In this document: positions 23,239-58,447 of the stretch, in pieces | Numbering within the stretch: the stretch's first letter is position 1 | Layout of the letters: every line of letters starts with the position of its first letter | DNA from: Maribacter luteus | Lineage (GTDB): Bacteria; Bacteroidota; Bacteroidia; Flavobacteriales; Flavobacteriaceae | Direction: 5' to 3' | Assembly: GCF_009674825.1 (NCBI RefSeq) | Contig: NZ_WKJH01000001.1 | Location: 682,001-746,000 of the forward strand | Length of the DNA: 64,000 nucleotides | The notes under the pieces: generated by a model | Told to the model about the DNA's origin: nothing | Database searches by the model: none | Seen by the model: the letters and a program-made list of their open reading frames with translations, nothing else | Translations under genes and position numbers: made by a program

Positions 23239-23256
23239 ATTACCAATGTCTAAATA

Positions 23257-24495: not shown

Positions 24496-24523
24496 AATAT
24501 GAATTTAAGTTGGTTAGAAATAG

Positions 24524-29788: not shown

Positions 29789-29819
29789 GGTTTTATAATT
29801 TATGGTTGCTGATCAGTGA

Positions 29820-31316: not shown

Positions 31317-31369
31317 TGTTTATTGATTAAGTGGTTTTAATTGTTTCTAGGGACAATCAAAACAGGGGT

Positions 31370-42691: not shown

Positions 42692-44401
42692 TCAATTAGC
42701 TTCAAATACTTGAATTTCCGATACACCCAATCTCAGTCCGGGAAGCCACCCAGCAGACATTTCAGCATTTCCATCTGTGATGGTGAACTTTACCCACTTC
42801 ACCTTTTTTGATGGGAACTTAATCTCTGTTGGGGTTTTAGCACTGTTTGAAGGGGCCGCGTACATCCATTCCATAGAACCATCACTGAATACAAAATATC
42901 CTTCTTTGGTCCACCGGTCTCCGGCCGGACTGTCATATACCCGTATTCTGTCGATTGTTTTTTCCTCATCCCACTCTAATTTGATCATGGCTCCTTTTCC
43001 TTCATTAGAAATCCACTCTTTTGTTTTGTCTTTGTTCTCTATATCAATGATGCCATCGATAACGGCCTCGGGCTTGCTTTCCTCTTCAGATGAAGTTGCT
43101 GATACTTTAGCTATTGGTGCTATGTTTTTTAAATCAGGTTTAATTTCTTTAAATGGTTCATCTTTTAGAACAAAAGCAAGCTCATGCATTGATGCCGCAT
43201 AGCGATTTTGATGCGGATTGATGTTCTGTACACTGTAATTACTTGCAACGGTCATCCATGCACTGGTACCATCATCATTGATAAACTGGGGTGTTATATT
43301 AGGAAAGTATGTTTGAGCTCCCCAATCTTTCATGTAATGTACAATTTTGTAAGGACCGGTTATTTCATCTGCCTCCCAAAAAATGGTAACATTGTAGGGG
43401 AGGTTTTCTTCCGATTCCTTTAATCTACAAGTCATCAAGATATACTTGTTCATCTTTGGAAAGTATGTGATGCTTTCACTACCTAAGTGATTGGGCCAAT
43501 CTACAATAGGTTTGGCGTTCGCTACTCCCTTTGCCCAGATTGGTTTGCCATTTTTAGTTAGCCCTGCAAAAAACTCATAGCTTTCCGCTTTTGTGATACT
43601 CTCGGGATTAGCATCCGTTCTACATAAATAGATGGCATCACCTTTATCCCAGTTGTTTTGACCTTTTCCGGAACTATATCCATGTGCACTCAAATAAATG
43701 TGTCCGTCTTCAGCCTTGTTGTTCTTTGCAAAATTTACCGCATGGACGGTACGAAATTTGGCTTTACCTTTTTCATTGAAAAAGTTACCATCCGGATCAA
43801 TGGTATTGATCCAATATTGATTTTTCCAATTGGGCTCTGTATTGGCGGTAAAATGGTTCCAGTTTTTTGAATATCTAAACCCATTGAAATAACCTTCATG
43901 ATTAAAGGCATTATAGGTGCCTATATAGAACACATCATCGACAATAAGACTTACACAAGGGTAATAATTGGTGCCACCTGCCCACATCCTCCCCAGATTT
44001 TCAAATTTAAGATTGACAGGGTCCTTACCGATCACTTTTGCCTGCCCGACAGCATTTGAACGGATATTTGAATTGGTTGAAAAACCTTCTATCTGTCCAT
44101 CCGTCCAAGTGGAATACAAGTTGCCGTCAGTTGAAGATTGTAGATACCATGTATCGGCAGCGGTATAATTAGCATATCGGCCTGTGAACATGACTTTGGT
44201 GATATCCTTAGACCGTTCGAATGGACAATCATCTGGAATTTCGTTTTCCCATTCATAATACGCATAGATTGGATTGATCGCAGGATCAGCTTTATCCCCC
44301 TCACGTTTAGTGTTATCTGTTAATTGAGCAAATGATACACCTTGAAATACTAAAACAAAAAAGATGGTAAATAATAAGGTCTTCATATTTTTGATTATCA
44401 A
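42692..44401 (-). CDS. Secreted DUF4185-like beta-propeller protein with C-terminal discoidin-type domain
   Basis: A 569-residue secreted protein with a signal peptide (ending VSFAQ; a second start, MKTLLF, lies 15 bp downstream). About residues 40-420 resemble a five-bladed propeller: repeated aromatic and glycine-rich blades such as FENLGRMWAGGTNYYP, HIYLSAHGYSSGKG and LGSESITYFPKMNKYILM. The last roughly 150 residues (ATSSEEESKPEAVIDGI, GAMIKLEWDEEKTIDRIRVY) are an F5/8-type carbohydrate-binding-like domain. Enzymatic function is unknown; a lyase, hydrolase or binding role is possible. It is followed by the GH63-like gene in the same orientation. Confidence 0.7.
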   Translation of the reverse strand: MIIKNMKTLLFTIFFVLVFQGVSFAQLTDNTKREGDKADPAINPIYAYYEWENEIPDDCPFERSKDITKVMFTGRYANYTAADTWYLQSSTDGNLYSTWTDGQIEGFSTNSNIRSNAVGQAKVIGKDPVNLKFENLGRMWAGGTNYYPCVSLIVDDVFYIGTYNAFNHEGYFNGFRYSKNWNHFTANTEPNWKNQYWINTIDPDGNFFNEKGKAKFRTVHAVNFAKNNKAEDGHIYLSAHGYSSGKGQNNWDKGDAIYLCRTDANPESITKAESYEFFAGLTKNGKPIWAKGVANAKPIVDWPNHLGSESITYFPKMNKYILMTCRLKESEENLPYNVTIFWEADEITGPYKIVHYMKDWGAQTYFPNITPQFINDDGTSAWMTVASNYSVQNINPHQNRYAASMHELAFVLKDEPFKEIKPDLKNIAPIAKVSATSSEEESKPEAVIDGIIDIENKDKTKEWISNEGKGAMIKLEWDEEKTIDRIRVYDSPAGDRWTKEGYFVFSDGSMEWMYAAPSNSAKTPTEIKFPSKKVKWVKFTITDGNAEMSAGWLPGLRLGVSEIQVFEAN

Positions 44402-44457: not shown

Positions 44458-45531
44458 TCAAGGCCTATCAAGTAATGCCAAAGCCGCTTTCATATAACCC
44501 ATTGCATAAGCCATACCTGCATACCATGGGGCGTCGCAGGTCATTTGTGGGGTATGGTCGGGAATCAATACGCCATCAAAATTGTTCTTCTTTAAAATCT
44601 TTAAAATCTTGAACATATCAATATCCCCTTCATCCACAAAAACCTCTTTATAGTTAGGTACCTTGCCTTTTACATTTCTAAAATGGATATATCCAATTTT
44701 ACCTTGCTCACTATAACTATCAGTAGCATCATATACATTGCCCTCGGTCATTTCAGCGATAGAACCTAAACAGAATTCCAGGTTGTTGGCTGGACTCGGA
44801 TTCATATCAATCAATTTTTGGTACATATTAGGTTGAAACACCAATCTGGGCGAATTACGCACATAGGGCATTGGTGGGTCATCTGGGTGGGCTGCCATTT
44901 TTACCCCTGCTTCCTCGGCAACAGGCAGGATCTCATCCAAAAAATACTGTAAACGACCCCACAGTTCGTCATGGTCTATTTTTGGCATAGTACCTTCAGG
45001 AGCATTTTCATCATACACCATGTTCCACACCATCCCATTGGGAATCGGGGTATCGTCGCCACCATCCATCCCTACAGAAACCGCTCCTCCACGAGCAAAA
45101 GGCCCTTGATTCCTTGCAGCCACACCGGCCAATGAAAAATTATATCCAAAAATGGGAATTCCTGCCTTACCCACATTGCGGATAAGTTGCTTCAGGTTTT
45201 CCATTTGAACTTCTTTCTTTGGTCCATCCAATAAGATATCATGCCAATGGGCAGGGTCAAAATTTTCAATGGCCTCCCATATCAAACCATGTGAATTTAT
45301 TTCCTTTTTAATGGCCATTAATTCCTCTAAGCTCCATATTTGATTGGCATCACCGGCTTTGCCCCAACCTTCCTTCTCTCCAATTGGTTGGTTCGCATTG
45401 CTTTTATCATTCTTTTCATGCCCAAAATAATCGACCATATGAACCACTACATGGGTTGCCCCACATTGTTTTGCGAACTTATAATGGTCCTCATTCAACA
45501 TATGCCTGTATAATCCGAATCCTAGTTTCAT
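44458..45531 (-). CDS. Mannonate dehydratase-like (UxuA family) enzyme
   Basis: UxuA dehydrates D-mannonate to 2-keto-3-deoxygluconate using a metal ion. The 357-residue protein keeps the metal and active-site set: H215 in MAAHPDDPP, C254 in EFCLGS, H283 in IHFRNVKG, and D325-H326 in IPDHTPQ. It also has FARGGAVSVGMDG. It is about 40 residues shorter than the well-studied UxuA and may act on a related sugar acid. No signal peptide, so it is cytoplasmic. It lies 44 bp after the CoA-transferase gene, which carries the LacI-type operator upstream. Confidence 0.85.
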   Translation of the reverse strand: MKLGFGLYRHMLNEDHYKFAKQCGATHVVVHMVDYFGHEKNDKSNANQPIGEKEGWGKAGDANQIWSLEELMAIKKEINSHGLIWEAIENFDPAHWHDILLDGPKKEVQMENLKQLIRNVGKAGIPIFGYNFSLAGVAARNQGPFARGGAVSVGMDGGDDTPIPNGMVWNMVYDENAPEGTMPKIDHDELWGRLQYFLDEILPVAEEAGVKMAAHPDDPPMPYVRNSPRLVFQPNMYQKLIDMNPSPANNLEFCLGSIAEMTEGNVYDATDSYSEQGKIGYIHFRNVKGKVPNYKEVFVDEGDIDMFKILKILKKNNFDGVLIPDHTPQMTCDAPWYAGMAYAMGYMKAALALLDRP

Positions 45532-45575
45532 CGTTATTTATTCTTAGTTATTATCTTAATTATTAATCTATTGCC

Positions 45576-46739
45576 TTAATCACAGAATTCCTTGCGTATT
45601 TCATCCGCATCTTCATTGAGCAAGGGTGCCGCTTTGTAAATTTTTTGTGGGGTATCGCTAAACCACACGGGAAACCCCGTTGTTTTCACTTTTCCGATGG
45701 TTGGGTGTTCAATTTCAATGATCATTTCATTGTGTTTGATCTGAGGGTCCTCGATCATCTCATCAAATGTATTTACTTGGGAACACCAAATATCTTCCTC
45801 CAGAAGAATGTTAAGCCAATCTTCCGTTGACCTCGTCTTAAACACAGCATCGAAATCGAACCGGATTTCATCCCTACTTTCTATGACATTATTTGATGCG
45901 AATTCTTCAGAGTCATATTTTTTCAATCCTATGATCTGGGCCAATCTTTGAACCGAATTCATACCAATGGCAATGTAACCGTCATTTGTGTTATAAAGGC
46001 CATATGGTGCCCCCACCCAAGGATTAGGAATACCGCTCTCACTTTTTTCAGGATTACTTCCCCGATGTAAAAAGGCCGTTACCTCCTGAATGTGAAATCC
46101 AACAACGGAGTTTAATAAATTGGCTTCTATTTTTTGCCCTTTTCCAGTTTTTTCCCTGGAATAAATGGCCGCTAGAACTGATTGATTGATGAACAAACTC
46201 GTTAATAAATCTGCCTGTCCTACCGCCGTAACTACCGGCATTTGGCCTTTTACACCATTCAATGCCGCAGTACCACTAATTGACTGCGCCAATAAATCTT
46301 GCCCCGGTCTATGCAAATATGGTCCGGTAGCCCCGTAACCTGAACTGGAGCAATACACCAAACCTCGATTGATTTTCTTCATATCTTCATAGCCCAACCC
46401 CAATCTTTCCATGACGCCAGGTCGAAAATTCTCAACCAAAATGTCGGCTTTCCTGATAATATCAAGTACTACCTTTTTATCCTCGGTATCCTTTAAATTC
46501 AAGGCTATACTTCTCTTATTCCTATTGAAACTTACAAAAGAGATACTTTCTCCTTCAGGATACATATTATCATAGGCGTAATGGCGCATCCAATCACCTT
46601 TTTTGGGTTCAATCTTAATAATATCGGCACCCATATCGCCCAACATCTGGGTGGCCCATGGTCCTTGTGCCAATTGTGTGAAATCGGCCACTATCAAACC
46701 CTTCAAAGGGCCTACGGTTTCATTGTTATCAGTACTCAT
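45576..46739 (-). CDS. CaiB/BaiF family (class III) CoA-transferase
   Basis: Moves CoA between an acyl-CoA and a carboxylic acid. The 387-residue protein has the family N-terminus PLKGLIVADFTQLAQGPWAT, GADIIKIEPKKGD and NRNKRSIALNL. The catalytic aspartate is in the conserved PGQDLLAQSISG. The substrate acid is unknown. It is the first gene of a pair with the UxuA-like dehydratase and has a LacI-type palindrome about 65 bp upstream of its start. With the enoyl-CoA hydratase gene nearby, it points to CoA-thioester chemistry within this sugar locus. Confidence 0.88.
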   Translation of the reverse strand: MSTDNNETVGPLKGLIVADFTQLAQGPWATQMLGDMGADIIKIEPKKGDWMRHYAYDNMYPEGESISFVSFNRNKRSIALNLKDTEDKKVVLDIIRKADILVENFRPGVMERLGLGYEDMKKINRGLVYCSSSGYGATGPYLHRPGQDLLAQSISGTAALNGVKGQMPVVTAVGQADLLTSLFINQSVLAAIYSREKTGKGQKIEANLLNSVVGFHIQEVTAFLHRGSNPEKSESGIPNPWVGAPYGLYNTNDGYIAIGMNSVQRLAQIIGLKKYDSEEFASNNVIESRDEIRFDFDAVFKTRSTEDWLNILLEEDIWCSQVNTFDEMIEDPQIKHNEMIIEIEHPTIGKVKTTGFPVWFSDTPQKIYKAAPLLNEDADEIRKEFCD

Positions 46740-46802
46740 ATTGTATTACTTTAGGAATTGAATAGTATTGGATACATAAAATCCCCTACACATTCCATTT
46801 TT

Positions 46803-46820
46803 GCTAAATCGATTTAGTTA
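46803..46820. promoter_or_regulatory. LacI-type operator upstream of CoA-transferase gene
   Basis: CTAAATCGATTTAG (46804-46817) is a perfect 14-bp palindrome with the central CG typical of LacI/GalR operators. The core matches the two 18-mers at 56640 and 61766 at all but one base. It lies 65 bp upstream of the CoA-transferase start. Confidence 0.65.
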
Positions 46821-46834
46821 ATAGTTACTTTTTT

Positions 46835-47881
46835 CTAAAAAACCACACAAACAGGGGATAATATTTCTTTGGTACGAAACTTCTCATTCAACATTCCGTC
46901 TTCTTCAATGCGATAGACGATCGTATCATGCGAATTTTGGTGACAGGCTATTAACCATTTACCATCAGGAGTAATATTGAATTCCCTTAATTCATCCCCA
47001 TTAGTATTCTGGTAGCTTATCAGTTCCAAACTATTCTCTTTAATCCGAAATATGGTTACCCCTTCGAATTTTCTGTTCGCCACATATAAGAAATTTCCAT
47101 TGGGGTGCATGCGTATAGCCGATGCACTGGGAACACCCTTGTAATCATTAGGTAAGGTGGAATAGGTGCCAATTTCTTTGAATACGCCTTCGTCACCTTG
47201 TAAAACAGATAGCGTACTAGTTAACTCACTGATCACATAAGCATAATCACCTACTTTATTGAAAACCATGTGCCTTGGTCCGTTACCTGAAGTAATCTTA
47301 CAATCCTTCATAGGGCTTGGCACTAAATATTCACCCTCGAATCTATAGGATTTGATCCTATCGATCCCCAAATCACAGACATAAATATCTTTGCCATTCG
47401 GGTGCACCGAAACCTGATGGGCATGTGGTGCTTCTTGCCGAACCTTATTGATGCTAGAACCCTTATGGTCATACTGTTTTGCCTTTGGCAACAGTTTTCC
47501 TGAAGCATCCAAAGGATATTGAAAGACATTCCCTGTGGCATAACAGGCCACCAAAATGTTATTGTGGTATGTTGTTAAATGACATGGGTACCCCCCCTTA
47601 ATCGGTTGTTCGTTCATAAATTCCAACGAAAAACCCTCTTTCACCCTATATGCCCTGACATGTGGGGAATCTTGCTCATCAAGTTCCGTATTACAGTACA
47701 AATATTTATGATCGGCACTAAGGGCCAAATAACTCGGGTTACGGGTAGGTTCGGTTGAAAGTATCTTGAGTTCGCCGGTTTTCGTATTAAGTTGAACGGT
47801 GTAAATACCATGGCCGATACCCCCAAAACCGGGAATAGGATATTCGGTATAACTGCCGATAAAGAATGTCAACGTTTCCAT
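46835..47881 (-). CDS. Cytoplasmic lactonase-family (6-phosphogluconolactonase-like) beta-propeller protein
   Basis: A 348-residue seven-bladed propeller of the lactonase family (PF10282 type). Signatures include YTVQLNTKTGELKIL, RNPSYLALSADHKYLY, HAHQVSVHPNGKDIYVCDLG and GNGPRHMVFN. It lacks a signal peptide, so it acts in the cytoplasm, probably opening a sugar lactone. It lies 3 bp after the enoyl-CoA hydratase gene and downstream of the SDR gene, whose product could supply the lactone. Whether the substrate is phosphorylated is unknown. Confidence 0.82.
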   Translation of the reverse strand: METLTFFIGSYTEYPIPGFGGIGHGIYTVQLNTKTGELKILSTEPTRNPSYLALSADHKYLYCNTELDEQDSPHVRAYRVKEGFSLEFMNEQPIKGGYPCHLTTYHNNILVACYATGNVFQYPLDASGKLLPKAKQYDHKGSSINKVRQEAPHAHQVSVHPNGKDIYVCDLGIDRIKSYRFEGEYLVPSPMKDCKITSGNGPRHMVFNKVGDYAYVISELTSTLSVLQGDEGVFKEIGTYSTLPNDYKGVPSASAIRMHPNGNFLYVANRKFEGVTIFRIKENSLELISYQNTNGDELREFNITPDGKWLIACHQNSHDTIVYRIEEDGMLNEKFRTKEILSPVCVVF

Positions 47882-47884
47882 ATT

Positions 47885-48652
47885 CTATGATTTAGCAATG
47901 AAATCCTGAATGGCTTTTTTTGCTTCAGCACCATAAAAAAGCTTTGTTACCACCTTACCCTCTTCAGTAATTTTCTGATCAAAAGGAAGAGCGGAAAGAC
48001 TTAGTTGCGCCAATTTTTTCAATTCTTTGATCGCTGATGGTGACCGTCTTGACAGTTTTTCTGCAAACCGTACGATCTCCGCATCAAAGTTATCTTCGGG
48101 AATTACCTGATTTACGATTCCCCAGTCATATAATTTTTCAGCAGTATACTGACCGCCGAAAAACAACAATTCCTTTGCACGGTTTATGCCTACTTTTTGA
48201 ATAAGACGCTGTGTTCCCCCACCCCCGGGAACCAAACTTAAGAATACTTCGGGCAGCCCCATTTTAGCCGTTGCACTGGCGAGTATCATATCGCAGGAAA
48301 GTGCAATTTCAAAACCTCCGCCAAGGGCAAATCCGTTTACCGCCGCAATCCATGGTTTAGACGCATTTTCGATGGTTTCGTATAACTTTATCCCTCGATC
48401 TTGGAAAGATTTGAACTCCTCTGGTGTCTGATCCCCGTATTCTTTGATATCGGCACCTGCCATAAATGCTCTACCTGAACCGGTAATGACCCCGACATTT
48501 ATAGAGTCATCAGTATTTATAAGTCGTATCGCTTCTATGATTTCATCCATCATTTCACGATTCATCGCGTTCAATTGTGTAGGTCGGTTAAAAATCAAGA
48601 AACCAATCTTATCTTCTGATTTTACGATGATATGTTTAAATGTTTTATTCAT
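47885..48652 (-). CDS. Enoyl-CoA hydratase/isomerase (crotonase) family protein
   Basis: A 255-residue crotonase-fold enzyme. The oxyanion-hole segments are AFMAGADIKEY and GFALGGGFE. Both acid-base glutamates of true hydratases are present (E115 in GGGFEIAL and E135 in MGLPEV, 20 residues apart as in mitochondrial ECH). It probably adds water to, or removes it from, an acyl-CoA. It overlaps the preceding solute-binding-protein gene by 8 bp and lies 3 bp ahead of the lactonase gene. No beta-oxidation partners are near, so a role in this sugar operon is suggested. Confidence 0.88.
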   Translation of the reverse strand: MNKTFKHIIVKSEDKIGFLIFNRPTQLNAMNREMMDEIIEAIRLINTDDSINVGVITGSGRAFMAGADIKEYGDQTPEEFKSFQDRGIKLYETIENASKPWIAAVNGFALGGGFEIALSCDMILASATAKMGLPEVFLSLVPGGGGTQRLIQKVGINRAKELLFFGGQYTAEKLYDWGIVNQVIPEDNFDAEIVRFAEKLSRRSPSAIKELKKLAQLSLSALPFDQKITEEGKVVTKLFYGAEAKKAIQDFIAKS

Positions 48653-49799
48653 AGGAAACTATGGTTTTATAGTGTTCATTTAAATTTTTTATCAATGTAT
48701 CGGCTCCGGTATTTTTTTCCACACAAGCATGGATTAAATCGGCCCCTTGTTCTTGAAATTCATTCCACCCGGGATATTGGGGTCTTATATATGCGTTTTT
48801 CATTGTTTTCATCGTATTCGTGAAAAAATCATTGCACAATGCATTGTTCGCTTCGCTTTTCCAGGCTTTTAACCCTGCGGGTTGACCTTGGTGCCGAACA
48901 TATTCCCCTGCTTGATTTTCGATATTGGCGATATATTTCAACAATTCCACCGCTAACTTTTTATACTTGCAATGTGCAGATACCGCCAAACCAACTCCAC
49001 CCAATATGGTGGATACCTCAGTATTCGGATTTGCGGGGCTATCAATAAAGGTGACAATGTTTTTGGCATATCCCATTCTTGAATAGTTGGTGTACCCGAA
49101 TAAGTAAGGAGCATAGATAATTTCGTCATTTGCTGCCATTTCATCCAAAATTTGAATCGGGTTCCAATTGATGGATTCAGGGTGAATGAACTCCAAATGG
49201 TATTTTAGTTCGTCAATCGCCTTGGCACCAATTTTAGGGTCGATTCCATTTTCATTAATAAAACCGCGCCCGCCGATTTGGGCACACAAGGTTAAAAAAG
49301 CACACCAGATATCTGTGGGGCAGAGCGCCCAGGCAACAGAAAGTTTATTGGGCACCTTTTTATAAAAACTTTTTAGCTCTTCAAGGGTTGTTGGCACTTG
49401 CAACCTCAGTTTCGACAACTGGTCATCCCTTTTCGCCGCAACCAACGCCGCTGCATCAATTGGTAAGGCATATAAATGCCCTTTATACTGATAAGAATCA
49501 TAGCAATGATCAACATAGGCATTTTCAAAAACGGCCAATTCATCTTCCGATATAATACCTTTTAAATCTAACAGCAATTGATTTTTATGTGCCTGACCCA
49601 TATAAGGGTGGTCAATTGTTATTAAATCGTATTCCTCTATCAGGTCTTCAATCGGCATATCACCAAATTCCTTAAGCGAACGAACATCCCATTTAATACT
49701 GACTTCAGGATGTGATTGCGTAAAACTCTTGGATAGCGCCCTTAGAGGTTCATAACCTCTGGGGTGATCCCATGCCATTCCCTTTAGTTCAATCTTCAT
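48645..49799 (-). CDS. Solute-binding protein (family 1)-like, without signal peptide
   Basis: A 384-residue protein with the fold pattern of sugar-type ABC solute-binding proteins: DLITIDHPYMGQAH, LYALPIDAAALVAAKRDD, and GGVGLAVSAHCKYKKLAVELL. The N-terminus MKIELKGMAWDHPRG has no signal peptide or lipobox. A 39-bp longer frame adds none either, so it should remain cytoplasmic. The start at 49799 is preferred because it follows the SDR stop by 7 bp instead of overlapping it. No permease or ATPase gene is nearby. It may be a cytoplasmic sugar or ligand sensor, or a carrier, in this operon. Confidence 0.75.
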   Translation of the reverse strand: MKIELKGMAWDHPRGYEPLRALSKSFTQSHPEVSIKWDVRSLKEFGDMPIEDLIEEYDLITIDHPYMGQAHKNQLLLDLKGIISEDELAVFENAYVDHCYDSYQYKGHLYALPIDAAALVAAKRDDQLSKLRLQVPTTLEELKSFYKKVPNKLSVAWALCPTDIWCAFLTLCAQIGGRGFINENGIDPKIGAKAIDELKYHLEFIHPESINWNPIQILDEMAANDEIIYAPYLFGYTNYSRMGYAKNIVTFIDSPANPNTEVSTILGGVGLAVSAHCKYKKLAVELLKYIANIENQAGEYVRHQGQPAGLKAWKSEANNALCNDFFTNTMKTMKNAYIRPQYPGWNEFQEQGADLIHACVEKNTGADTLIKNLNEHYKTIVSYE

Positions 49800-49806
49800 T
49801 TTTGAT

Positions 49807-50607
49807 CTAGTCTTTTGTTCTTGGAGGGCGCGGATCATATTGAATGGTATGGTTCATATATGCACCATCGATATAAATATCGGAGCCATTGATATAGTCG
49901 CCCAATTCACTCGCCATAAAGGCTACGGTATGGGCTACATCTCCCACATTACCAATTCTACCTTGTGGAATCCAATTCTCAAACTTCTCTTTTCCGAATT
50001 TGGCAATTTCCTCCCTGTTCATTTCCGTGGTTATGGCCCCGGGGGCAATAGAAACGACCCTTACATTATTTTCTGCCAATTCGAGTGAAAGGCATTTTGA
50101 AAGCATTTTTAACCCTGCCTTTGCGGAACAGTAATGGATCAATCCCTTTCTAGGTACCACATCATGGATCGATGAAATATTTATAATGACACCACCTCCA
50201 TCTTTTTCCATTCTTTTACCTGCCTCTTTGGAACATAAAAAGGGTCCCTTCAAATTCACATTGATGACACGGTCCCATTCTTCTTCATCCAAATCCAATA
50301 TATGGTGAATGGATTCGGTTCCTGCGTTGTTTACAAGAATATCAATTCCGCCAAATTCAGCATCCATTTTCGCGAACATTTTCTTTATCTGTTCCGAATC
50401 TGAAACATCTGCACCCGCAATTCCTGTTTTTACCCCATAAGCATCGCTTATTTCTTGGGACAATTTTTCAGCACTTTGCTTATTGCTATTATAATTGATG
50501 AAAACATCGGCACCACAAGCACCTAATTTTCTACATATTTCGGCGCCTATTCCTTTGCTTCCGCCTGTAACCAAAACCTTTTTCCCTTGTAAATCTATAT
50601 TAAGCAT
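49807..50607 (-). CDS. Short-chain dehydrogenase/reductase (glucose 1-dehydrogenase-like)
   Basis: A 266-residue NAD(P)-dependent oxidoreductase with the nucleotide motif TGGSKGIG (residues 14-21), NNAG, the catalytic serine in NISSIHD and the YCSAK catalytic pair. SDRs of this type oxidize sugars or alcohols. In this operon, next to a lactonase and UxuA-type dehydratase, oxidation of a free sugar at C1 (or another carbon) is a reasonable role. Family similarity alone cannot fix the substrate. Confidence 0.85.
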   Translation of the reverse strand: MLNIDLQGKKVLVTGGSKGIGAEICRKLGACGADVFINYNSNKQSAEKLSQEISDAYGVKTGIAGADVSDSEQIKKMFAKMDAEFGGIDILVNNAGTESIHHILDLDEEEWDRVINVNLKGPFLCSKEAGKRMEKDGGGVIINISSIHDVVPRKGLIHYCSAKAGLKMLSKCLSLELAENNVRVVSIAPGAITTEMNREEIAKFGKEKFENWIPQGRIGNVGDVAHTVAFMASELGDYINGSDIYIDGAYMNHTIQYDPRPPRTKD

Positions 50608-50650
50608 AAACCTTGCTTTTAATTCATATCTAAATTGAAAACTTAAAACA

Positions 50651-51064
50651 TTAGCTGAAAGCTTTTTCGACCAACGCCTTCATTTCGATCCTTTTTTCGA
50701 CAGATAATTCGAAAAAATCGAAATCACCTTCATGGGTATTTGATTTCTCAACGATAATTACCTCACAACCCACTTCCATTGCAATATTATGCCATGTTTC
50801 AACCGGAATGTTATAAGTGATTTTAGGTTGCATAAGTTCAACGTCATATTCAATTTGATCTCCCTCAATTTTTGCCGTGATCAATACCGCTTTTCCTTTT
50901 AAGAGGATAAAAACCTCATCGGTCAAATGATGAACGTCCAACTTCTTAATATTATCAATTTCCTGTTCGGGCATGTAATTCAATTGGGCAACCTGCCAAC
51001 CATCCCGAATTAGAAAAGGATGATACCCATTATCACCAATATGATATTGCTCTATCAATTTCAT
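50651..51064 (-). CDS. Small cupin-like protein
   Basis: A 137-residue protein with a cupin-style core: HHLTDEVFILLKGKAVLIT (motif 1, with two His and a Glu) and VETWHNIAM (motif 2, with His). It may bind a metal and act as a sugar isomerase or lyase-like enzyme, or only as a binding protein. Its start overlaps the stop of the MFS transporter gene by 4 bp (translational coupling). Confidence 0.7.
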   Translation of the reverse strand: MKLIEQYHIGDNGYHPFLIRDGWQVAQLNYMPEQEIDNIKKLDVHHLTDEVFILLKGKAVLITAKIEGDQIEYDVELMQPKITYNIPVETWHNIAMEVGCEVIIVEKSNTHEGDFDFFELSVEKRIEMKALVEKAFS

Positions 51065-52545
51065 TTACTTTGTTTTTGTTTTTTATTATCGGTTTTCCAC
51101 GACATCTCTATTTCTTCCAAGGTTTTTCCTTTGGTTTCAGGAACAAATTTCCAAATGAACCAAATGGCAGGAATCGTCAATGTCCCATAAAGGAAGAATG
51201 TGCCAGAAGGCTTAATGGTCTCTATAAAAACAGGATTGGTCAAGGTGATGAAAAAACCTGTCACCATTAAGGACAGACTGCCGATACTTACAGCAAGACC
51301 CCTGATTTTTGTTGGGAATATCTCGCTGATGATTACCCAAACTATGGGTCCGTATGAGAATGCGAAACACGCTACATAAATCAATAATGGAATAATCACC
51401 AAGTTGGAACCTAAAGCGAACAATATACCAACACCCATCAAAGATACAGCAGCTCCGATGACCCCGATCAACAGTAGCTTTCTTCTACCATATTTTTCAA
51501 TATTCAATATGGCAACAAAAGTGAAGATCGAATTAACCATACCAACCAAGACAGCACCAAGGAAAGAACTCTCAACACTTTTGAACGATTCATTCAAGAT
51601 ATTGGGCGCAAAATACATGATGGCCGCTATTCCACTTAAATGGGAGAACATCGGCAATAAAATACCGATTAAAAATGGTCTTCTTAAATAGGGTTTGAAC
51701 AGTTCTTTCAACCCTTGGGTTTCTTGGATAGTGGCTTCTTTCATTTCTGCCAACTGACTTTTTGCCATTTCCAGATCACCTAACCTTGACATCGTGGCAA
51801 GAGCTTCTTTTTCTTTGCCGTTCACCACCTGCCATCTTGGACTTTCGGGCACGAACATGAGTAAAACCAAAAACAGAACGGCAATGGGTATTTCTGTACC
51901 GAACATGCCTCTCCATAATTCCTCTACAAATAGCCAATCCCATAAACCCACATCAGCACCAGTGATAATTCCGGCCTTCTCACCAGCCTGATTGAGAACG
52001 AGCCAATCAACAAGAAAAGCGAGTAGGATACCCAAAGTTATGGACAATTGATATAGGGATACCATTTTTCCCCTTTTCTCGGGCATGGTAAGTTCCGAAA
52101 TATAAATAGGGGCTACAACCGAGGTTATACCCACACCGATTCCCCCAATTATCCGGACTACAATCAACGTGATAAAAGATGAATCCAAACTTGAGGTTAT
52201 CCAGAAAGAAGCATCTGGATCTCCCAAAAACTGTGGGGGTAACATGGAACCAAAAGCCGATATCGTTAAACAACCTGCTGCTAATATCAAGGTTTTTTTA
52301 CGCCCATATAAGTCGGTTACCCTCCCTGAAATAATACATCCTAAAATGGTTCCTAACAACGCAGAGGAAACCACCCAACCGAGCATACTTGCCGTAAGGT
52401 TGTATTGACTTTCCAAAAACGAGTTGCACCCGGAAATAATGGCTGTGTCATAACCAAATAGGAAACCGCCTAAAGTAGATACGAAACTTATTGCCAGAAG
52501 GTAAAAAGAAGACTTTTTATTCATTATCATTACTGTTTTTGACAT
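51061..52545 (-). CDS. Sugar-porter family MFS transporter (XylE/GalP-like)
   Basis: A 494-residue inner-membrane sugar:H+ symporter with 12 hydrophobic segments. The family motifs include GGFLFGYDTAIISG near the start, GRVTDLYGRKKTL, PIYISELTMPEKRGKMVSLYQ and the C-terminal PETKGKTLEEIE. It carries the mono- or disaccharide released in the periplasm into the cytoplasm, where the neighbouring enzymes would act. It lies 6 bp after the RraA-like gene, and its stop overlaps the cupin start. Confidence 0.92.
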   Translation of the reverse strand: MSKTVMIMNKKSSFYLLAISFVSTLGGFLFGYDTAIISGCNSFLESQYNLTASMLGWVVSSALLGTILGCIISGRVTDLYGRKKTLILAAGCLTISAFGSMLPPQFLGDPDASFWITSSLDSSFITLIVVRIIGGIGVGITSVVAPIYISELTMPEKRGKMVSLYQLSITLGILLAFLVDWLVLNQAGEKAGIITGADVGLWDWLFVEELWRGMFGTEIPIAVLFLVLLMFVPESPRWQVVNGKEKEALATMSRLGDLEMAKSQLAEMKEATIQETQGLKELFKPYLRRPFLIGILLPMFSHLSGIAAIMYFAPNILNESFKSVESSFLGAVLVGMVNSIFTFVAILNIEKYGRRKLLLIGVIGAAVSLMGVGILFALGSNLVIIPLLIYVACFAFSYGPIVWVIISEIFPTKIRGLAVSIGSLSLMVTGFFITLTNPVFIETIKPSGTFFLYGTLTIPAIWFIWKFVPETKGKTLEEIEMSWKTDNKKQKQSK

Positions 52546-52551
52546 GTATGT

Positions 52552-53256
52552 TTACATGATACCAAATTTCTCAAAAGCCTCAACTGTACTCATTCCCGCC
52601 TGGAGTGCCTCCTTTACCAACTGTTCGCCCCTAGCTTTTTCTATTGCCCCCGTAAAGGCTTCATCAACAGCTTCTTTAGGCACAATCAATACGCCGTCTA
52701 TATCACCATAAACAACATCACCAGGGTTTATTCGAATACCTGCAATTTCTATGGGAACCCTATAATCGATAACCTTTCCCCGTGGACCTTGATCTTGGGC
52801 ATAACCACCGAATGAAAAAGTTGGATATTCTAGACTTAGAATCTCTTTCGTATCCCTTGAATATCCATTGACCACTGCTCCGGCAGCGCCTAATTTCATA
52901 GCTCTGGTACTCATTAATCCGCCCCAAAGCGCATAATTGGGTGAAGAACCTGAACAGATATAAACCTCATCTTCTTTTAAACTATCCAAGGCTTCGAACA
53001 TAATGCCAAAAGGCTTCTGCATTAAAGGGTTTTTGGTGTTTTCAGTGACTTCCTCAAATACATCGGCCTCCAAAACAGGCATTGCCCTTCCTATTACTAT
53101 GAAATCATCATTCAAGGGTTTTAAATTGGGAGGAAGGAACTGATGCAAATAGCCCATTTTATCCAAAATATCGCCTACCAATGCCACGAATAATTCTTTT
53201 TTAGCGATTTCAAAAAGCTCCTTATCATTTTTCCATAACGGCTTAGTTGTCTTCAT
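52552..53256 (-). CDS. RraA-family aldolase/decarboxylase
   Basis: A 234-residue protein of the RraA family. It has the full motif G-X20-R-D-X2-E (G113, R134, D135, E138; GYSRDTKE). This is the form seen in family members shown to have 4-hydroxy-4-methyl-2-oxoglutarate aldolase and oxaloacetate decarboxylase activity, and it differs from E. coli RraA, an RNase E inhibitor. It probably cleaves a 2-oxo acid to pyruvate plus an aldehyde or acid. The location among sugar-acid enzymes supports an aldolase role over an RNA role. Confidence 0.8.
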   Translation of the reverse strand: MKTTKPLWKNDKELFEIAKKELFVALVGDILDKMGYLHQFLPPNLKPLNDDFIVIGRAMPVLEADVFEEVTENTKNPLMQKPFGIMFEALDSLKEDEVYICSGSSPNYALWGGLMSTRAMKLGAAGAVVNGYSRDTKEILSLEYPTFSFGGYAQDQGPRGKVIDYRVPIEIAGIRINPGDVVYGDIDGVLIVPKEAVDEAFTGAIEKARGEQLVKEALQAGMSTVEAFEKFGIM

Positions 53257-53684: not shown

Positions 53685-56597
53685 TTATTTTTCTGAAAAA
53701 ATCAGTTTATAGGTTTCAATCGCATTGTGACCTATATTTACCTTAAAGTCATTACCTGAGGCTTTCATTTGACTTTCTTCCTCTTCGATCAGGTTTGTTT
53801 TGACAAGACCTGTGAGGGACTTTGGCAGCCCTATACTAGGTTGCTTGTCTTTCCCTTCCATTTCGACCAACCTTATAATGACCTTATCATCTTTCTCACT
53901 TTTTTTAATTGTACTTATACGCACCATATCCTCTGAAACATTGAAGAAACTCATCGCTTCCGGCAATTCCGCTTGCTTATTTCCCTTTTGTTTTAAAACA
54001 GTTCGCAGAGGGTGGTTAAATCCCGTTCCAAACTGAAAAGAGGTTTTCTCATCTGCCTTGTGTGATGCCATAGAAAACTTGAAATGATGGTCACCGGTCT
54101 GGTGGTACCAATTGCCTTCCCCGTGACAGCTTTTATGGGAGGCCAATAATACTCCCTGAAGTACCGTGTAATCCACAGCCTCCCTCGTAGGGTCTATCCA
54201 ATCAGCAAGTGCAACATCGGTAGCCATGGTTACCGCAAAATCCGGTGTCTCCGCGACAATGAAGTTCATCACCTCACGTGGATGTATGTTTACCGGCTTT
54301 TGATCATAGGTTCCTCCCCATGCCCAACCACCTGGCGCCTGTTTCATTTCTGTTTTTCCTACTTCGGCTATGGCCAATGGCACTTCATACTTAATCTTGG
54401 AATCTTCCATATTAAGGGGCAATGCAAATCTAAATTCCCTATTGTGTGTACCGTCCCAATCCAAAAGATCTACGAAGAAATCTATTTTCTTCTCTTGATG
54501 GAACACCCGTATTCTCTGCACCACGGAAGTATGCTTAAACTTTGCCTTGTTTTCATATTCCGTATAAACGGCCCCATCGGCAACCAATTCCCAACTATCC
54601 CCATGGTTGCTCATCTTTTCATAATTATCCATATTGGGCTTGGTCATTTGGGTAAACTCCCCTGCCCCATTGCCATTATATCCCATTGATAGAATATCGC
54701 CACCTGAAAAACGCGTCGTGTTCATAACTTCGGTTTTCAACTTATTATCAAATAAATAGGTGATTCCCCCCTTACCAAGGTGCATTGTATAATATTCGTT
54801 CATCAATGCATTCGGTGTTACGGTTTTATTGATTTTGGCCTGTCTCTTACCCTTTCTTAAATAGTAGGTTTTATATCCTATGGATGGAATTTTCGCTGCA
54901 TATAATTGTATTTCATCCTTATCACTTGTACTTGCTTGTGAAGGAACCACTATACCATTTTCGTCTGTCACATAATAGGATGCCGCATTCTTTATTTTTA
55001 CAGAGGCCAACCCACTTCGACTCCATGAAAGGTCGTTGTACACTACAACTCCATTCGATTTTTTTGTGTTTATCCTTTCGGAAATGGAACCCAAAGATTT
55101 GTTCAGCAATGCAACGGCCTCATCAGCCGCGAATTCCAATTTATCCTTAAAAATACTGTCTGTGATATGGCCGTTTTTACCACCCCACCCATGATCGGGA
55201 TAAATAGATTCCTCAAAGGCCTTTGACAACCGCTCTGCGGGATACTCATCAAAGCTTTTATTAAGAAGTGCATCCACGGTACCAAAAATTTCCGCGGAAG
55301 GTAAAAGCCGACCTGCTTTTCTCGATGCCGTAATGGCCTTATGGTGTCCAGGGCCATGTATATAAGCCCAAATATTGGGACGATCCCCCTCTAAATTCTC
55401 GAACTTAACCCCTGGCTTATTAATTTCGGATAGGAAGCTGCTTACGGTCGAATGTCTTAAAGCGGGTATTTTAGCACCTGTTTTGGCAACAATATCATTC
55501 CATTCCTTCACTACTTTGCCGTAATCCACAGGGCCGGCAGCATCATTACTAAGAACGATGGCAAAATGCGGTGGTAAATTATGCTCCTTATAATAATCGC
55601 CCCACATTTTCACCCTGTTTTGAATCTTATGCAAGGCTTCAATAGCATCCTCATCAAAAATTTTGTAGAACATTGCCGCCCAACCATAGTTCCCAGGTGT
55701 ATAAGTCAATATCGAGGATCCATCTGGGGATTTCCAATCATAGAACCCTTCCCTCATTCTAGAGGTGAAAAGGTTTTTTACCCCTGACTTGGCCAAAATC
55801 TGGGAAAACTGTAAAGTTCTCCCGGGAACATCGGTATTGTAAGCCGATTCTTCTTCTACACCATCAAAATTATCCTTTATCCAAAGCTTGCCAAAATACA
55901 TTTCCCGAATTAACTGCTCTCCCGTCTGCATGCCATCATAAGGTTGGTTATAAGTAGCACCCCAAGTGAACCTACCTTCTTTATAGCGTTCAATCACCTC
56001 ATTTTTACGTTCAGGAAATTCTTGAACAAATTCTTTTAAATTCAGGGCCTGCTCCATCCCAAAATAATAGTCTTTATCCGTTTTCATGATATCCAGGGCA
56101 GGGGCAATAATATCATTGACCCTTTCATGCATACAATATTCAGGGGTATCCATCCAAGCAATATCCTGATGTGAGGAAGATATAATATGGAAGGTGCCTT
56201 CATTGAAATACCCCCAATCAGAAGTCACCAATGGTGTAAAAAGTTGTTTCTGGTCCAATTTTCGACTTGCCCCCTTAAAGTCTATCATCTCAGGTTGGCC
56301 TATAACAGGAAGCCACACCCAGGCCTTGCCCTCTTTATGTTCGATTTTTGAGGTGCGTCCGTTTTCGAAAACGACCTGTTTGTAATCTTCCTCGTTTGCT
56401 ACTTGCAAATAAGCCTTTACCAGAATATTATTATCTTTCTGGACATACTCATAAGGTTTAGGGTATTCAAATCCGATGGTTTTATCTATCGATTGTGAAA
56501 CACCGATGCAGGAAACCAAAAGCACCACTGTTAGTAAGATACCCTTCTTTAATTTCCTAATTCTATTCTTCATTAATATTTGTTTTTTATAATCCAT
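53685..56597 (-). CDS. GH38-family alpha-mannosidase-like lipoprotein (paralogue A)
   Basis: A 970-residue glycoside hydrolase with an exported N-terminus. A second start at 56573 gives a cleaner signal peptide with lipobox LVSC. The catalytic part has SSHQDIAWM (metal ligands H143, D145) and NTDVPG with the probable nucleophile D256. It also has IHGPGHHKAITASRKAG and YPDHGWGGKNGHITD, found in this GH38 subgroup. It is a close relative of the partial GH38 at 61825. An operator and a -7 element lie just upstream. Family members hydrolyse alpha-mannosides, but the true substrate of this subgroup is unknown. Confidence 0.88.
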   Translation of the reverse strand: MDYKKQILMKNRIRKLKKGILLTVVLLVSCIGVSQSIDKTIGFEYPKPYEYVQKDNNILVKAYLQVANEEDYKQVVFENGRTSKIEHKEGKAWVWLPVIGQPEMIDFKGASRKLDQKQLFTPLVTSDWGYFNEGTFHIISSSHQDIAWMDTPEYCMHERVNDIIAPALDIMKTDKDYYFGMEQALNLKEFVQEFPERKNEVIERYKEGRFTWGATYNQPYDGMQTGEQLIREMYFGKLWIKDNFDGVEEESAYNTDVPGRTLQFSQILAKSGVKNLFTSRMREGFYDWKSPDGSSILTYTPGNYGWAAMFYKIFDEDAIEALHKIQNRVKMWGDYYKEHNLPPHFAIVLSNDAAGPVDYGKVVKEWNDIVAKTGAKIPALRHSTVSSFLSEINKPGVKFENLEGDRPNIWAYIHGPGHHKAITASRKAGRLLPSAEIFGTVDALLNKSFDEYPAERLSKAFEESIYPDHGWGGKNGHITDSIFKDKLEFAADEAVALLNKSLGSISERINTKKSNGVVVYNDLSWSRSGLASVKIKNAASYYVTDENGIVVPSQASTSDKDEIQLYAAKIPSIGYKTYYLRKGKRQAKINKTVTPNALMNEYYTMHLGKGGITYLFDNKLKTEVMNTTRFSGGDILSMGYNGNGAGEFTQMTKPNMDNYEKMSNHGDSWELVADGAVYTEYENKAKFKHTSVVQRIRVFHQEKKIDFFVDLLDWDGTHNREFRFALPLNMEDSKIKYEVPLAIAEVGKTEMKQAPGGWAWGGTYDQKPVNIHPREVMNFIVAETPDFAVTMATDVALADWIDPTREAVDYTVLQGVLLASHKSCHGEGNWYHQTGDHHFKFSMASHKADEKTSFQFGTGFNHPLRTVLKQKGNKQAELPEAMSFFNVSEDMVRISTIKKSEKDDKVIIRLVEMEGKDKQPSIGLPKSLTGLVKTNLIEEEESQMKASGNDFKVNIGHNAIETYKLIFSEK

Positions 56598-56974: not shown

Positions 56975-58447
56975 TTAATCCCCCAAGTTGGGATTAAGTA
57001 CCACCTCGTTCTGTGGTATTGGGAAATAGACATTATCTTCAGTTAGGGTTTTCCCATTTGGTAGTGTGCTACCAACTAAACTGCCAAAATCAGAACCATT
57101 GAAGACCATTCCGGTTCTTCGTTGATCAAACCAGATTATTCCTGCCTCTGCAGCAAACTCCCAAAAACGTTGTTTCCAGACTTCTTCCCTAAAATCTTCT
57201 TTACTCAATCCAGAAACATCTGCCAAACCTGCTCTTGAACGTATCGCGTTCAAGGCATTATATGCCGATGCATCTGCAGTGGCCACTTCGTTATGCGCTT
57301 CTGCATAAGTTAATAGCACATCTGCATATCTTAAAAGAGGTACATTCTTACCAGACAATCCGTTCCCTTCCCTATATTCTTCATAAAAATATTTATAGAC
57401 GGAATTATTAAAAGTAACACCATCCATTTCATTGAAAAAGAAGCCTTGGTTTTGAGCCCTTAAGTCATTGGCATCGTATGAGCTTATGTAATCCTCTTCT
57501 GGCTCCATACCACCAAAATGCAAGGTCAACGGACTTATTGCCTCTCCGCCTATGGGTGTAAAATAACTGGTAATCGATGACCCGACAGCCTCATCATTAT
57601 ATTGAACCATGAAAATGTTTTCTTCAGTATTGTCAAATGCTGGATTGTTCAATTTATTGAACCAAGTTTTAGAACCATCCGATTGAAACAAATTATACCA
57701 TTCGGCACTTATAACCTCATTGGCTTTATCCCGCGCTAGGGCATATTTATCGGTTTGGTTCAAAGGGGCTCCTGCCATAGTCAAATAAACCTTGGCCAAA
57801 AGCGATTTCACCGCGCCTTTAGTGACTCGTCCACTTGAAGATGTATTGGGTAACCCGGCATCTTCGGCAATCAATAAATCAGGTACGATTACGGTTTCAT
57901 ATACTTCCTGTACACTGGATTTTGGCAACAGACCGTCATCAAAAGAAGATGAAGGCGTAATATTCAATGGAATATCCCCAAAGATCTGTACCAATTGATA
58001 ATAATAATAAGCCCTTAAAAAGTACGCCTCTCCCAATAATGCATTAGCCTTTTCAGTGGTCAATTCTGGATCCGTTATAGTAGGTATGGATGCAATTGCA
58101 ATATTAGCAGCTTCAACACCTCCATAATAAGTGTTCCAAAATCCTGAGGCATTGGCGTTACTGGAACTATAGATCAAAGCATAGGCATCTTCCATATCAG
58201 TGTCCTGTGTGCCTACTGCAGGTTTAAGTGCCCCTGTACTTACTTCAAGAATGGAATATACCATTTTTGCATACCCTGTTCTGTTATATGGGGCTCGTAG
58301 ATAAGCATATATACCATTTACAGACTCTTGTGCATCCAATAATGACGTACCTATTGTCGTTTTTTCGGATTTTGGTGTTTCATCCAAAAAATCCTCACAT
58401 GAGAAAAACAGGCAACAAATAATTAATAATAGATTATATTTTGTCAT
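56975..58447 (-). CDS. susD: SusD/RagB-family outer-membrane glycan-binding lipoprotein
   Basis: A 490-residue surface lipoprotein that captures oligosaccharide and delivers it to the SusC channel. The signal ends in lipobox LFFSC, with Cys about residue 16 followed by EDFLDETPKSEKTT. The TPR-rich SusD pattern is seen as GEAYFLRAYYYYQLVQIFGDIP, and the C-terminus is YFPIPQNEVVLNPNLG. It lies 16 bp after the SusC gene and is the last gene of the pair. Ligand unknown; alpha-mannosides are suggested by neighbours. Confidence 0.93.
   Translation of the reverse strand: MTKYNLLLIICCLFFSCEDFLDETPKSEKTTIGTSLLDAQESVNGIYAYLRAPYNRTGYAKMVYSILEVSTGALKPAVGTQDTDMEDAYALIYSSSNANASGFWNTYYGGVEAANIAIASIPTITDPELTTEKANALLGEAYFLRAYYYYQLVQIFGDIPLNITPSSSFDDGLLPKSSVQEVYETVIVPDLLIAEDAGLPNTSSSGRVTKGAVKSLLAKVYLTMAGAPLNQTDKYALARDKANEVISAEWYNLFQSDGSKTWFNKLNNPAFDNTEENIFMVQYNDEAVGSSITSYFTPIGGEAISPLTLHFGGMEPEEDYISSYDANDLRAQNQGFFFNEMDGVTFNNSVYKYFYEEYREGNGLSGKNVPLLRYADVLLTYAEAHNEVATADASAYNALNAIRSRAGLADVSGLSKEDFREEVWKQRFWEFAAEAGIIWFDQRRTGMVFNGSDFGSLVGSTLPNGKTLTEDNVYFPIPQNEVVLNPNLGD

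Follow-up and report, generated by a model that had tools for sequence, protein, structure and literature searches.

A predicted two-part sugar oxidation operon with an optional CoA-transferase module beside alpha-mannosidase-family genes in Maribacter luteus

Introduction

Why should the enzymes expected of an oxidative sugar pathway be interleaved, in a single run of genes, with a CoA-transferase and an enoyl-CoA hydratase? The question is raised by a stretch of 64,000 nucleotides of Maribacter luteus (contig NZ_WKJH01000001.1, positions 682,001 to 746,000; this whole stretch is hereafter the window), in which nine genes between positions 44458 and 53256 follow one another head to tail on the minus strand, the strand also of the flanking genes from 34090 to 63999 detailed below. 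All nine open reading frames (ORFs) were confirmed, together with their families (called against the cut-offs of Pfam and NCBIfam models) and their close packing within about 9 kb, with intergenic gaps from -32 to +95 bp, so that the observation from which the initial annotation started stands. In the order of transcription, with the gap to the next gene in brackets, they code for an RraA-like lyase (6 bp), a sugar-porter transporter of the major facilitator superfamily (MFS; -4), a cupin-like protein (43), a short-chain dehydrogenase/reductase (SDR; -32), a protein with a solute-binding fold (SBP-like; -8), an enoyl-CoA hydratase of the crotonase family (ECH; 3), a lactonase (95), a CaiB/BaiF CoA-transferase (CaiB; 44) and a UxuA-like dehydratase. 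The operon has two parts. We call module A the sugar porter, cupin, SDR, lactonase, UxuA-like dehydratase and RraA-like lyase, and module B the CaiB CoA-transferase, the crotonase and the cytoplasmic solute-binding-fold protein; module B is optional.

Conservation of the gene set

A contig scan with the SBP-like protein recovered eight loci at 56-71% identity, each with a gene of glycoside hydrolase (GH) family 38, on contigs titled Maribacter, Pseudozobellia, Seonamhaeicola, Hyunsoonleella, Carboxylicivirga and Marinilabiliaceae, the last two of which we place in another order. For the counts we have tabulated 19 non-duplicate loci with an SBP of the window type, the window included (loci and genomes carry our L and G numbers); L075, L076 and L156, duplicates of L004, L002 and L006, and L008, at a contig end, were dropped. 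All nine genes were found in 13 of the 19, including the SDR of L002, over which an antisense ORF had been called and for which tblastn was used. Taken singly, the UxuA-like gene was present in all 19 loci, the MFS and lactonase genes in 18, RraA and ECH in 17, the cupin in 16, CaiB in 15 and the SDR in 17 (18 with that of L002), with GH38 genes in 17. The lactonases of several loci are merely 35-41% identical to that of the window. Recurrence of the set together with GH38, which the initial annotation had named as its own main check, is thus borne out.

The same association is seen across 397 Flavobacteriaceae genomes. The UxuA-like protein has relatives at E<=1e-90 in 23 of them, 20 at no less than 73% identity, and the SBP at E<=1e-40 in 28, of which 14 reach at least 54% (window type). 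All 14 genomes with a window-type SBP fall among the 20 with the UxuA-like gene (hypergeometric 1.8e-21, kinship ignored), and the two genes lie no more than about 5 kb apart in 13, and on different contigs in G577.

Some loci hold more than one set. In L152 (1576-4900) and L153 (1577-4900) a second CaiB (44-45%), SDR (33-35%) and MFS gene (40-42%) lie near the first, and in L089 (7578-12019) the second set is joined by a UxuA-like gene (30% identity) and one for an MGH1-like hydrolase (83%). These parallel oxidation sets suggest two related sugars.

Joint loss of three genes

A way to divide the operon is offered by relatives in which part of it is missing. Both L138, from the same genus as the window, and L139 keep RraA, MFS, cupin, SDR, lactonase and UxuA in the same order, along with GH38 and GH76-like genes, and both stretches are without SBP, ECH and CaiB. 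In the corresponding genomes (G009 and G472) neither CaiB (E<=1e-30) nor the SBP (E<=1e-40) has a match. L163 retains a piece of the SBP (residues 16-88) and a piece of CaiB (133-387), no ECH was seen there, and full-length matches to the SDR, MFS, RraA and lactonase remain. Within the 20 UxuA-positive genomes, a full-length CaiB at 75% identity or more occurs in 10 of the 14 that have the SBP, against none of the six that do not (Fisher p 0.011, or 0.05 if a fragment in G651 is counted; kinship ignored). Since the three genes are absent together in L138 and L139 and fragmentary in L163, module B is optional, and the main route can be completed without the CoA steps.

The proposal of one nine-step pathway was therefore rejected, as three of its genes are jointly missing in relatives. 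On the whole, the initial annotation is partly supported. In L163 (5174-7784) another MFS-like match lies between the module B fragments, a case of module decay in one genome.

Module A, a predicted Entner-Doudoroff-like route

The RraA-like protein (52552-53256; PF03737, 107.7 bits) is a candidate 2-keto-3-deoxy-sugar-acid aldolase. Its G-x-x-R-D motif (G131, R134, D135), which we take to be the class II aldolase motif of such proteins, is invariant in all 14 aligned sequences; the protein falls below the cut-off of all nine NCBIfam models listed. The XylE-like transporter (51061-52545; PF00083, Sugar_tr, 346.3 bits) exceeds the NCBIfam cut-off for the sugar porter family (324.8 against 237.8) and misses that of the XylE equivalog (393.8 against 608). 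The small cupin-like protein (50651-51064) has no Pfam match and matches an NCBIfam WbuC-cupin model weakly (E 1.4e-4, 21.7 bits against a cut-off of 42). A profile built from 11 relatives matches one solved protein, 3d0j, labelled 'uncharacterized' (E 8.6e-25), and our guess is that it acts as a mutarotase- or anomerase-like helper. A second, diverged cupin-like gene directly precedes RraA in L002 (6061-6477) and L004 (6098-6514).

The SDR (49807-50607; PF00106, adh_short, 196.7 bits, and PF13561), a candidate aldose 1-dehydrogenase, scores above the cut-off of a glucose 1-dehydrogenase subfamily (NF005559, 220.0 against 215) and below that of the L-rhamnose 1-dehydrogenase model (198.2 against 400). 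The lactonase (46835-47881; PF10282, 300.7 bits) is a seven-bladed beta-propeller protein that falls below the cut-offs of the NCBIfam 6-phosphogluconolactonase models. The UxuA-like dehydratase (44458-45531; PF03786, 190.9 bits against a cut-off of 23.7) preserves H215, C254, H283, D325 and H326, which we assign as the metal-binding or catalytic positions of UxuA, in 12 of 12 aligned sequences, two full-length UxuA proteins among them. It misses the cut-off of the subfamily model NF003027 (155.3 against 191) and forms a distinct short subfamily.

The dehydrogenase, lactonase, dehydratase and lyase families of an Entner-Doudoroff (ED)-type pathway are thus coded together, and module A probably is an oxidative route of this kind. 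The monosaccharide set free, most likely D-mannose or a modified form of it, would be imported by the sugar porter; the SDR would oxidise it at C1 to a lactone, which the propeller lactonase would open to the aldonate; and the UxuA-like enzyme would dehydrate the aldonate to 2-keto-3-deoxygluconate (KDG). This compound could then be split by the RraA-like lyase, or phosphorylated by a KDG kinase and split by an aldolase for 2-keto-3-deoxy-6-phosphogluconate (KDPG), or both. Reactions and substrates are all predictions here, drawn from the gene content, conservation, modularity and conserved residues that we observe. The kind of pathway that module A represents is known; its arrangement is new.

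KDG is the most likely product of the predicted dehydratase because genes of a KDG-type kinase and a KDPG aldolase are found in the clusters of L003 and L163. In L003 a PfkB kinase that scores best, though below cut-off throughout, with models of KDG-kinase type stands directly after UxuA and is followed by a KDPG aldolase (NF005499, 353.7 against a cut-off of 275); L163 has relatives of both (69% and 57%). The nine genes of the window include no such kinase or aldolase, as the initial annotation had said of the DNA in general; two KDPG-aldolase-family genes do occur at other places on this contig, and near each of them lies a kinase 71-72% identical to the KDG-type kinase of L003. A strictly non-phosphorylative ending agrees with the nine genes but is put in doubt by this kinase and aldolase pair in the genome, L003 and L163. 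The genome also codes for a full UxuA-type protein elsewhere.

Relatives of the RraA-like protein at 60-64% identity are found on plasmids of other bacteria, and two relatives (62-64%) sit in oxidative sugar clusters. The one in Ensifer lies beside a full UxuA, with an SDR, a lactonase of the SGL family, a 51% UxuA-like protein and an ATP-binding cassette (ABC) importer near. The other, in Phocaeicola massiliensis (L019, 8632-23636), is a 64% relative among genes for GH95, AraC, MR/MLE, SDR, an SGL lactonase, an SSF symporter and two GH2 enzymes, apparently an oxidative sugar route in a gut bacterium. These similar sets agree with the oxidative, ED-like logic originally read from the SDR, lactonase, UxuA-type and RraA genes.

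Proteins of module B

Both enzymes of module B keep their presumed catalytic residues. In the crotonase (47885-48652; PF00378, ECH_1, 192.3 bits), E115 and E135, which we take to be the two catalytic glutamates and whose retention had been noted from the start, are invariant in 10 of 10 aligned sequences. In the family III CoA-transferase (45576-46739; PF02515, CoA_transf_3, 364.9 bits), the aspartate of the PGQD motif (D148), presumably catalytic and the counterpart of Frc Asp169, is invariant in 16 of 16; the protein stays below the cut-offs of all 7 NCBIfam models listed.

The SBP-like protein (48645-49838; PF13416/PF01547, SBP_bac_8/1, 47.5 and 46 bits) is the most unusual part of the operon. 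By eye, neither it nor its relatives have a signal peptide or lipobox, and a mature-type start stands shortly before strand 1. The start has a conserved pattern of its own, KGM[AT]WxHPRG, and 48 positions are invariant in 14 sequences across phyla (alignment A3, which leaves out L007, L022 and the second SBP-type protein of L011, at 20% identity). The missing signal peptide, the conserved start and the invariant positions argue for a conserved site in what looks like a cytoplasmic protein. Its profile finds sugar-binding proteins (best 1eu8, E 2.4e-17); Foldseek lends weak support to a sugar-binding fold, its input being an AlphaFold model of low quality (mean pLDDT 61.6). Among the listed genes of the window-type loci, labelled by BLAST to a small reference set, none is marked as an ABC permease or ATPase, and the nearest in the window is at 3125. 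A role as ABC transporter component was rejected, there being no visible signal peptide and no transporter genes; in some alphaproteobacterial clusters an entire ABC transporter is coded separately, along with a binding protein of its own. We can only guess that the protein binds the sugar acid for the transferase.

Module B in distant relatives and the exchange of hydratases

Outside the phylum the SBP family is represented by 146 plasmid records, mostly of Sinorhizobium, with 33-35% identity among the 30 listed. We have read 13 alphaproteobacterial stretches (L010, L012-L015, L021, L022, L079-L084), hand-picked from the matches and in part closely related (two Shinella, two Sinorhizobium meliloti); as ORF calling overlooks genes in these GC-rich loci, annotated records or tblastn were used instead. 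CaiB adjoins the SBP gene in 12 of them, the exception being Microvirga (L081), where the SBP lies among RraA, two UxuA, SGL and SDR genes. Of the 23 distant Bacteroidota loci (L052-L074; one genus contributes several of them and one genome three), 21 have CaiB within 8 kb of the SBP; MaoC occurs in 16 of the 23, an ECH-like gene in two (L052, L054) and neither hydratase in five. A frequent order is SBP-CaiB1-CaiB2-second SBP-Gfo/Idh-MaoC, and some of these loci have RhaT, RhaM, GH29, rhamnosidase, GH141 or pectin enzymes.

The second SBP-fold protein stands next to CaiB2 in many Bacteroidota loci (L011, 15451-16683; L062, 12431-13654; and others), and that of L011 is about 20% identical to the first. 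L056 (10-2520) codes for a protein in which a GH141 insertion domain is combined with a rhaM mutarotase domain at the C-terminus; a MaoC form of module B and GH28 are close by. In L013 (3077-12723) MaoC, CaiB, SBP and an AMP-binding protein, a possible CoA-ligase primer for module B, are found near PdxA and a four-carbon acid sugar kinase.

The hydratase partner is thus exchanged between groups. ECH is present in 18 of 20 window-type loci (17 of the 19 tabulated and a cut copy in L008), none of which has MaoC within 8 kb, and MaoC in six of the seven alphaproteobacterial stretches in which an L-rhamnose mutarotase is annotated; the remaining one, L080, stops too early to tell. Because unrelated hydratases are swapped while CaiB and SBP stay, the shared step of module B suggests itself as a hydration or dehydration at C2-C3 of a CoA thioester. 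The 3-hydroxyacyl-CoA substrates of crotonases have the (3S) and those of MaoC-type enzymes the (3R) configuration, and in Fischer projection the C3 hydroxyl is on the left in D-mannonate and on the right in L-rhamnonate and L-fuconate. The choice of crotonase or MaoC would then match the configuration at C3, with two unexplained exceptions (L052 and L054).

Two loci join module B to recognisable sugar enzymes. In Pseudosulfitobacter (L082) aldose epimerase, SDR, CaiB, SBP, ECH and FAH genes stand in a row. In L062, of the same family as the window, the SDR passes the L-fucose dehydrogenase cut-off (356.7 against 300), and the best matches of the lactonase and the FAH protein, both below cut-off, are L-fuconolactonase (271.4 against 400) and 2,4-didehydro-3-deoxy-L-rhamnonate hydrolase (367.7 against 500); no dehydratase but MaoC was recognised in this locus. 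Its genome, G398, has two MR/MLE proteins over cut-off, with best matches to DgcA/dipeptide epimerase and MenC, all below cut-off. One IlvD/EDD protein each was found in G226, G083, G379 and G398 and two in G371, G277 and G257. The argument that module B fills a dehydratase gap is limited to the first four of these seven genomes, which have two MR/MLE proteins over cut-off (best E 1e-28 to 1e-31) and in which no clear classical aldonate dehydratase was seen, the MR/MLE proteins having been identified in G398 only.

What does module B do?

The explanation that we favour for module B is an elimination across C2-C3 on the CoA thioester of a sugar acid, tentative as it is, and the two-module explanation taken whole has slightly less than an even chance. 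The CaiB CoA-transferase would move CoA onto the sugar acid, the crotonase would eliminate water (or an O-alkyl group) to leave a 2-keto-3-deoxy acyl-CoA, and CoA would then pass to the next sugar acid and so work catalytically, with the cytoplasmic solute-binding-fold protein holding the sugar acid or assisting the transferase. Module B would in this way extend the route to acids beyond the reach of the UxuA-like enzyme, such as an epimer or a methylated mannonate, and could be a new kind of sugar-acid chemistry. A wider, and rather doubtful, extension is a general undescribed route in which CoA is placed on an aldonic acid and eliminated by a crotonase (C3 hydroxyl on the left) or MaoC (on the right), with a cytoplasmic SBP fold.

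Several observations weigh against this picture. With UxuA present, the substrate of module B in the window operon is a guess. The UxuA-like protein misses the uxuA equivalog cut-off (TIGR00695, 128.7 against 199.55) and is only 27% identical to the full UxuA of its own genome, so that D-mannonate may not be its substrate; a modified mannonate may be. Its gene stands apart from most module A genes in L142, L143 and L148: in L142 (6773-10060) it is 78% identical and divergent from a full UxuA relative (49%) and an SDR-like gene, with no other module A protein recognised at high identity, in L143 it is accompanied only by RraA and an SDR-like gene, and in L148 only by an SDR-like gene. RraA is kept beside the KDG-type kinase and KDPG aldolase of L003 and L163, so the RraA-like protein may do something else than cleave KDG. 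FlDet, an RraA-family protein of an alginate-using bacterium, is described as a KDGR dehydratase/decarboxylase (PMC8563752), and RraA proteins thus need not be aldolases.

The composition of module B is not strict either. In L149 and L160 the SBP stands in a stretch without ECH or CaiB, in L004 and L150 the SBP and ECH are joined by no more than a 44-46% CaiB elsewhere in the genome, and in L081 and L074 the SBP occurs with RraA and no CaiB near. A strict rule that SBP and CaiB are inseparable was rejected on L149, L160, L081 and L074. The stereochemical match uses general enzyme specificities and sugars assigned from gene neighbours; besides the five distant loci with neither hydratase, the ECH-like genes of L052 and L054 (31-33% identity, beside an aldehyde dehydrogenase-like gene) are unexplained, L069 has both a GH92-like gene and a rhamnosidase together with MaoC, and L010 has a second CaiB with ECH besides its MaoC set. 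A PF13378 search found MR/MLE proteins in all 20 genomes, which speaks against a simple dehydratase gap, and only those of G398 were identified among the genomes used for that argument. Several alphaproteobacterial clusters have an MR/MLE or L-fuconate dehydratase alongside module B, which is then no gap filler there and leaves room for removal of O-methyl groups or epimerisation.

How do other explanations fare? Module B could degrade an acyl decoration of the glycan, or some other short acid, leave the sugar chain untouched and merely share the operon. A CoA-transferase with an enoyl-CoA hydratase is ordinary chemistry of fatty and short acids, the SDR is FabG-like by several NCBIfam matches and could be a 3-hydroxyacyl-CoA dehydrogenase, and the module is dispensable; yet no thiolase is among the nine genes, the SDR is kept where module B is gone (L138, L139), a protein of sugar-binding-type fold belongs to the module, and similar sets are found again in clusters for several sugars, in the company of sugar dehydrogenases, lactonases or mutarotases. 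We hold this reading to be unlikely. Less probable still is the removal of O-methyl groups, a special case of the elimination that we favour, in which the acid of 2-O- or 3-O-methyl mannose (fucose or rhamnose in relatives) would be activated with CoA, methanol being released along with the C2-C3 elimination. It would account for module B being added onto routes that look complete (the comparison with L138 and L139; the alphaproteobacteria with an MR/MLE dehydratase), and it fits the GH141-type protein with a rhaM domain in L056, as GH141 acts on the fucose of rhamnogalacturonan II, which is 2-O-methylated; methylated mannose occurs in algal and mollusc N-glycans. The methylated substrate is hypothetical here, G398 seems to need module B for any fuconate dehydration, and no gene for methanol or formaldehyde was noticed in the clusters, no search having been aimed at such genes.

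Epimerisation of the aldonate at C2 or C3 through a CoA thioester, by which several sugars would feed UxuA, recalls the CaiB and CaiD pair of carnitine racemisation, and the CaiB superfamily includes alpha-methylacyl-CoA racemases. As L062 and L082 have no recognised dehydratase nearby, the route there would miss its dehydration step, and we regard epimerisation as distinctly improbable. That unrelated known genes, each of a family known singly, have gathered by coincidence around a mannoside locus has a negligible chance: it is already contradicted by the nine genes occurring together in 13 of 19 loci, by the joint absence of three, and by the co-presence of SBP and UxuA-like genes in 14 of 14 genomes.

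Comparison with known systems

The non- and semi-phosphorylative ED-type routes for L-rhamnose, L-fucose and pentoses use the same families of C1 dehydrogenase, lactonase, aldonate dehydratase and lyase, and in L003 and L163 a KDG-type kinase and KDPG aldolase are shared too. Unlike them, the operon has a short-subfamily UxuA-like protein, an RraA-family lyase, a propeller lactonase, import by a sugar porter and a setting in a mannoside locus. Compared with the D-mannonate dehydratase UxuA, the operon protein shares the Pfam UxuA family and the H/C/H/D-H positions and lacks an insert, in addition to the low identity and equivalog score given above. With HMG/CHA aldolase, other RraA-fold lyases and FlDet (PMC8563752) the RraA-like protein shares PF03737 and G-x-x-R-D, but its neighbours are sugar oxidation genes and the listed NCBIfam models are missed.

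In the carnitine-crotonobetaine system (CaiB/CaiD) a family III CoA-transferase works with a crotonase, the same pairing as in module B, and the two-subunit benzylsuccinate CoA-transferase BbsEF (9fn0) resembles the two side-by-side CaiB genes of many Bacteroidota relatives. Module B differs from both in its place in sugar-acid clusters and in its partner, a cytoplasmic solute-binding-fold protein. This protein shares fold and sequence profile with ABC sugar-binding proteins (1eu8, SmoF, others), from which it differs by having no visible signal peptide, no adjoining permease or ATPase gene in window-type loci, and the KGM[AT]WxHPRG start. A study of SAR202 proposes oxidative fucose and rhamnose routes with mandelate-racemase-like enzymes, and in its main text 'CaiB', 'CoA transferase' and 'MaoC' do not occur (PMC10444878). 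Among the matches listed from the open-access literature, we found neither a description of CaiB and SBP-like proteins in sugar catabolism nor a named pathway with such a CoA part, as initially surmised.

If these predictions are true, marine and soil bacteria would oxidise deoxy- and manno-sugars of algal, fungal and plant glycans without prior phosphorylation, and a function would be given to proteins of Bacteroidota and Alphaproteobacteria annotated merely as 'CoA transferase' or 'extracellular solute-binding protein'. The general CoA route, if true, would be the sole fuconate or rhamnonate dehydratase in some Flavobacteriaceae. The exchange of crotonase and MaoC gives a sharp stereochemical prediction, and relatives with module A only (L138, L139) or a decayed module B (L163) are natural controls.

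The surrounding locus

The nine genes are embedded among SusC- and SusD-like genes, three GH38, one GH92 and an MGH1-like hydrolase gene. Upstream in the direction of transcription are an alpha-mannosidase-family protein of GH38 (53685-56597; PF01074, 91 bits), a SusD-like outer-membrane protein (56975-58447, with an 83% relative in L004) and a SusC-like TonB-dependent transporter (58464-61643, 88% relative in L004), both read from the sequence, and another GH38 alpha-mannosidase-family protein cut by the window end (61825-63999; PF01074, 31.6 bits, PF07748 and PF17677). On the other side follow a protein with C-terminal DUF7402 that probably acts on polysaccharides (42692-44401; PF24135, 87.9 bits; a 95% identical copy in L004), the MGH1-like glycoside hydrolase (40225-42438; PF22422, 29.6 bits against 27), the third GH38 alpha-mannosidase-family protein (36754-40155; PF01074, 109 bits) and a GH92 protein with a PA14 domain (34090-36741; PF07971, 528.3 bits). 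The operon may be the intracellular end of an alpha-mannoside utilisation locus. The glycan source is probably an N-glycan or alpha-mannan, as suggested by GH85 and GH76-family matches in L006 and GH92 in other loci.

At 29051-32929, downstream of the mannoside locus, lie genes of the GlpF, GlpK and GlpD families (glycerol), which, with the MGH1-like enzyme, may conceivably be linked to mannosylglycerol or mannosylglycerate substrates. Farther on, the window contains a DUF4357 protein with weak GIY-YIG and RAMA matches (27218-28060) and, at 22150-25369, consecutive genes of the ROK, MFS and APH families, which may form a set for sugar import and phosphorylation.

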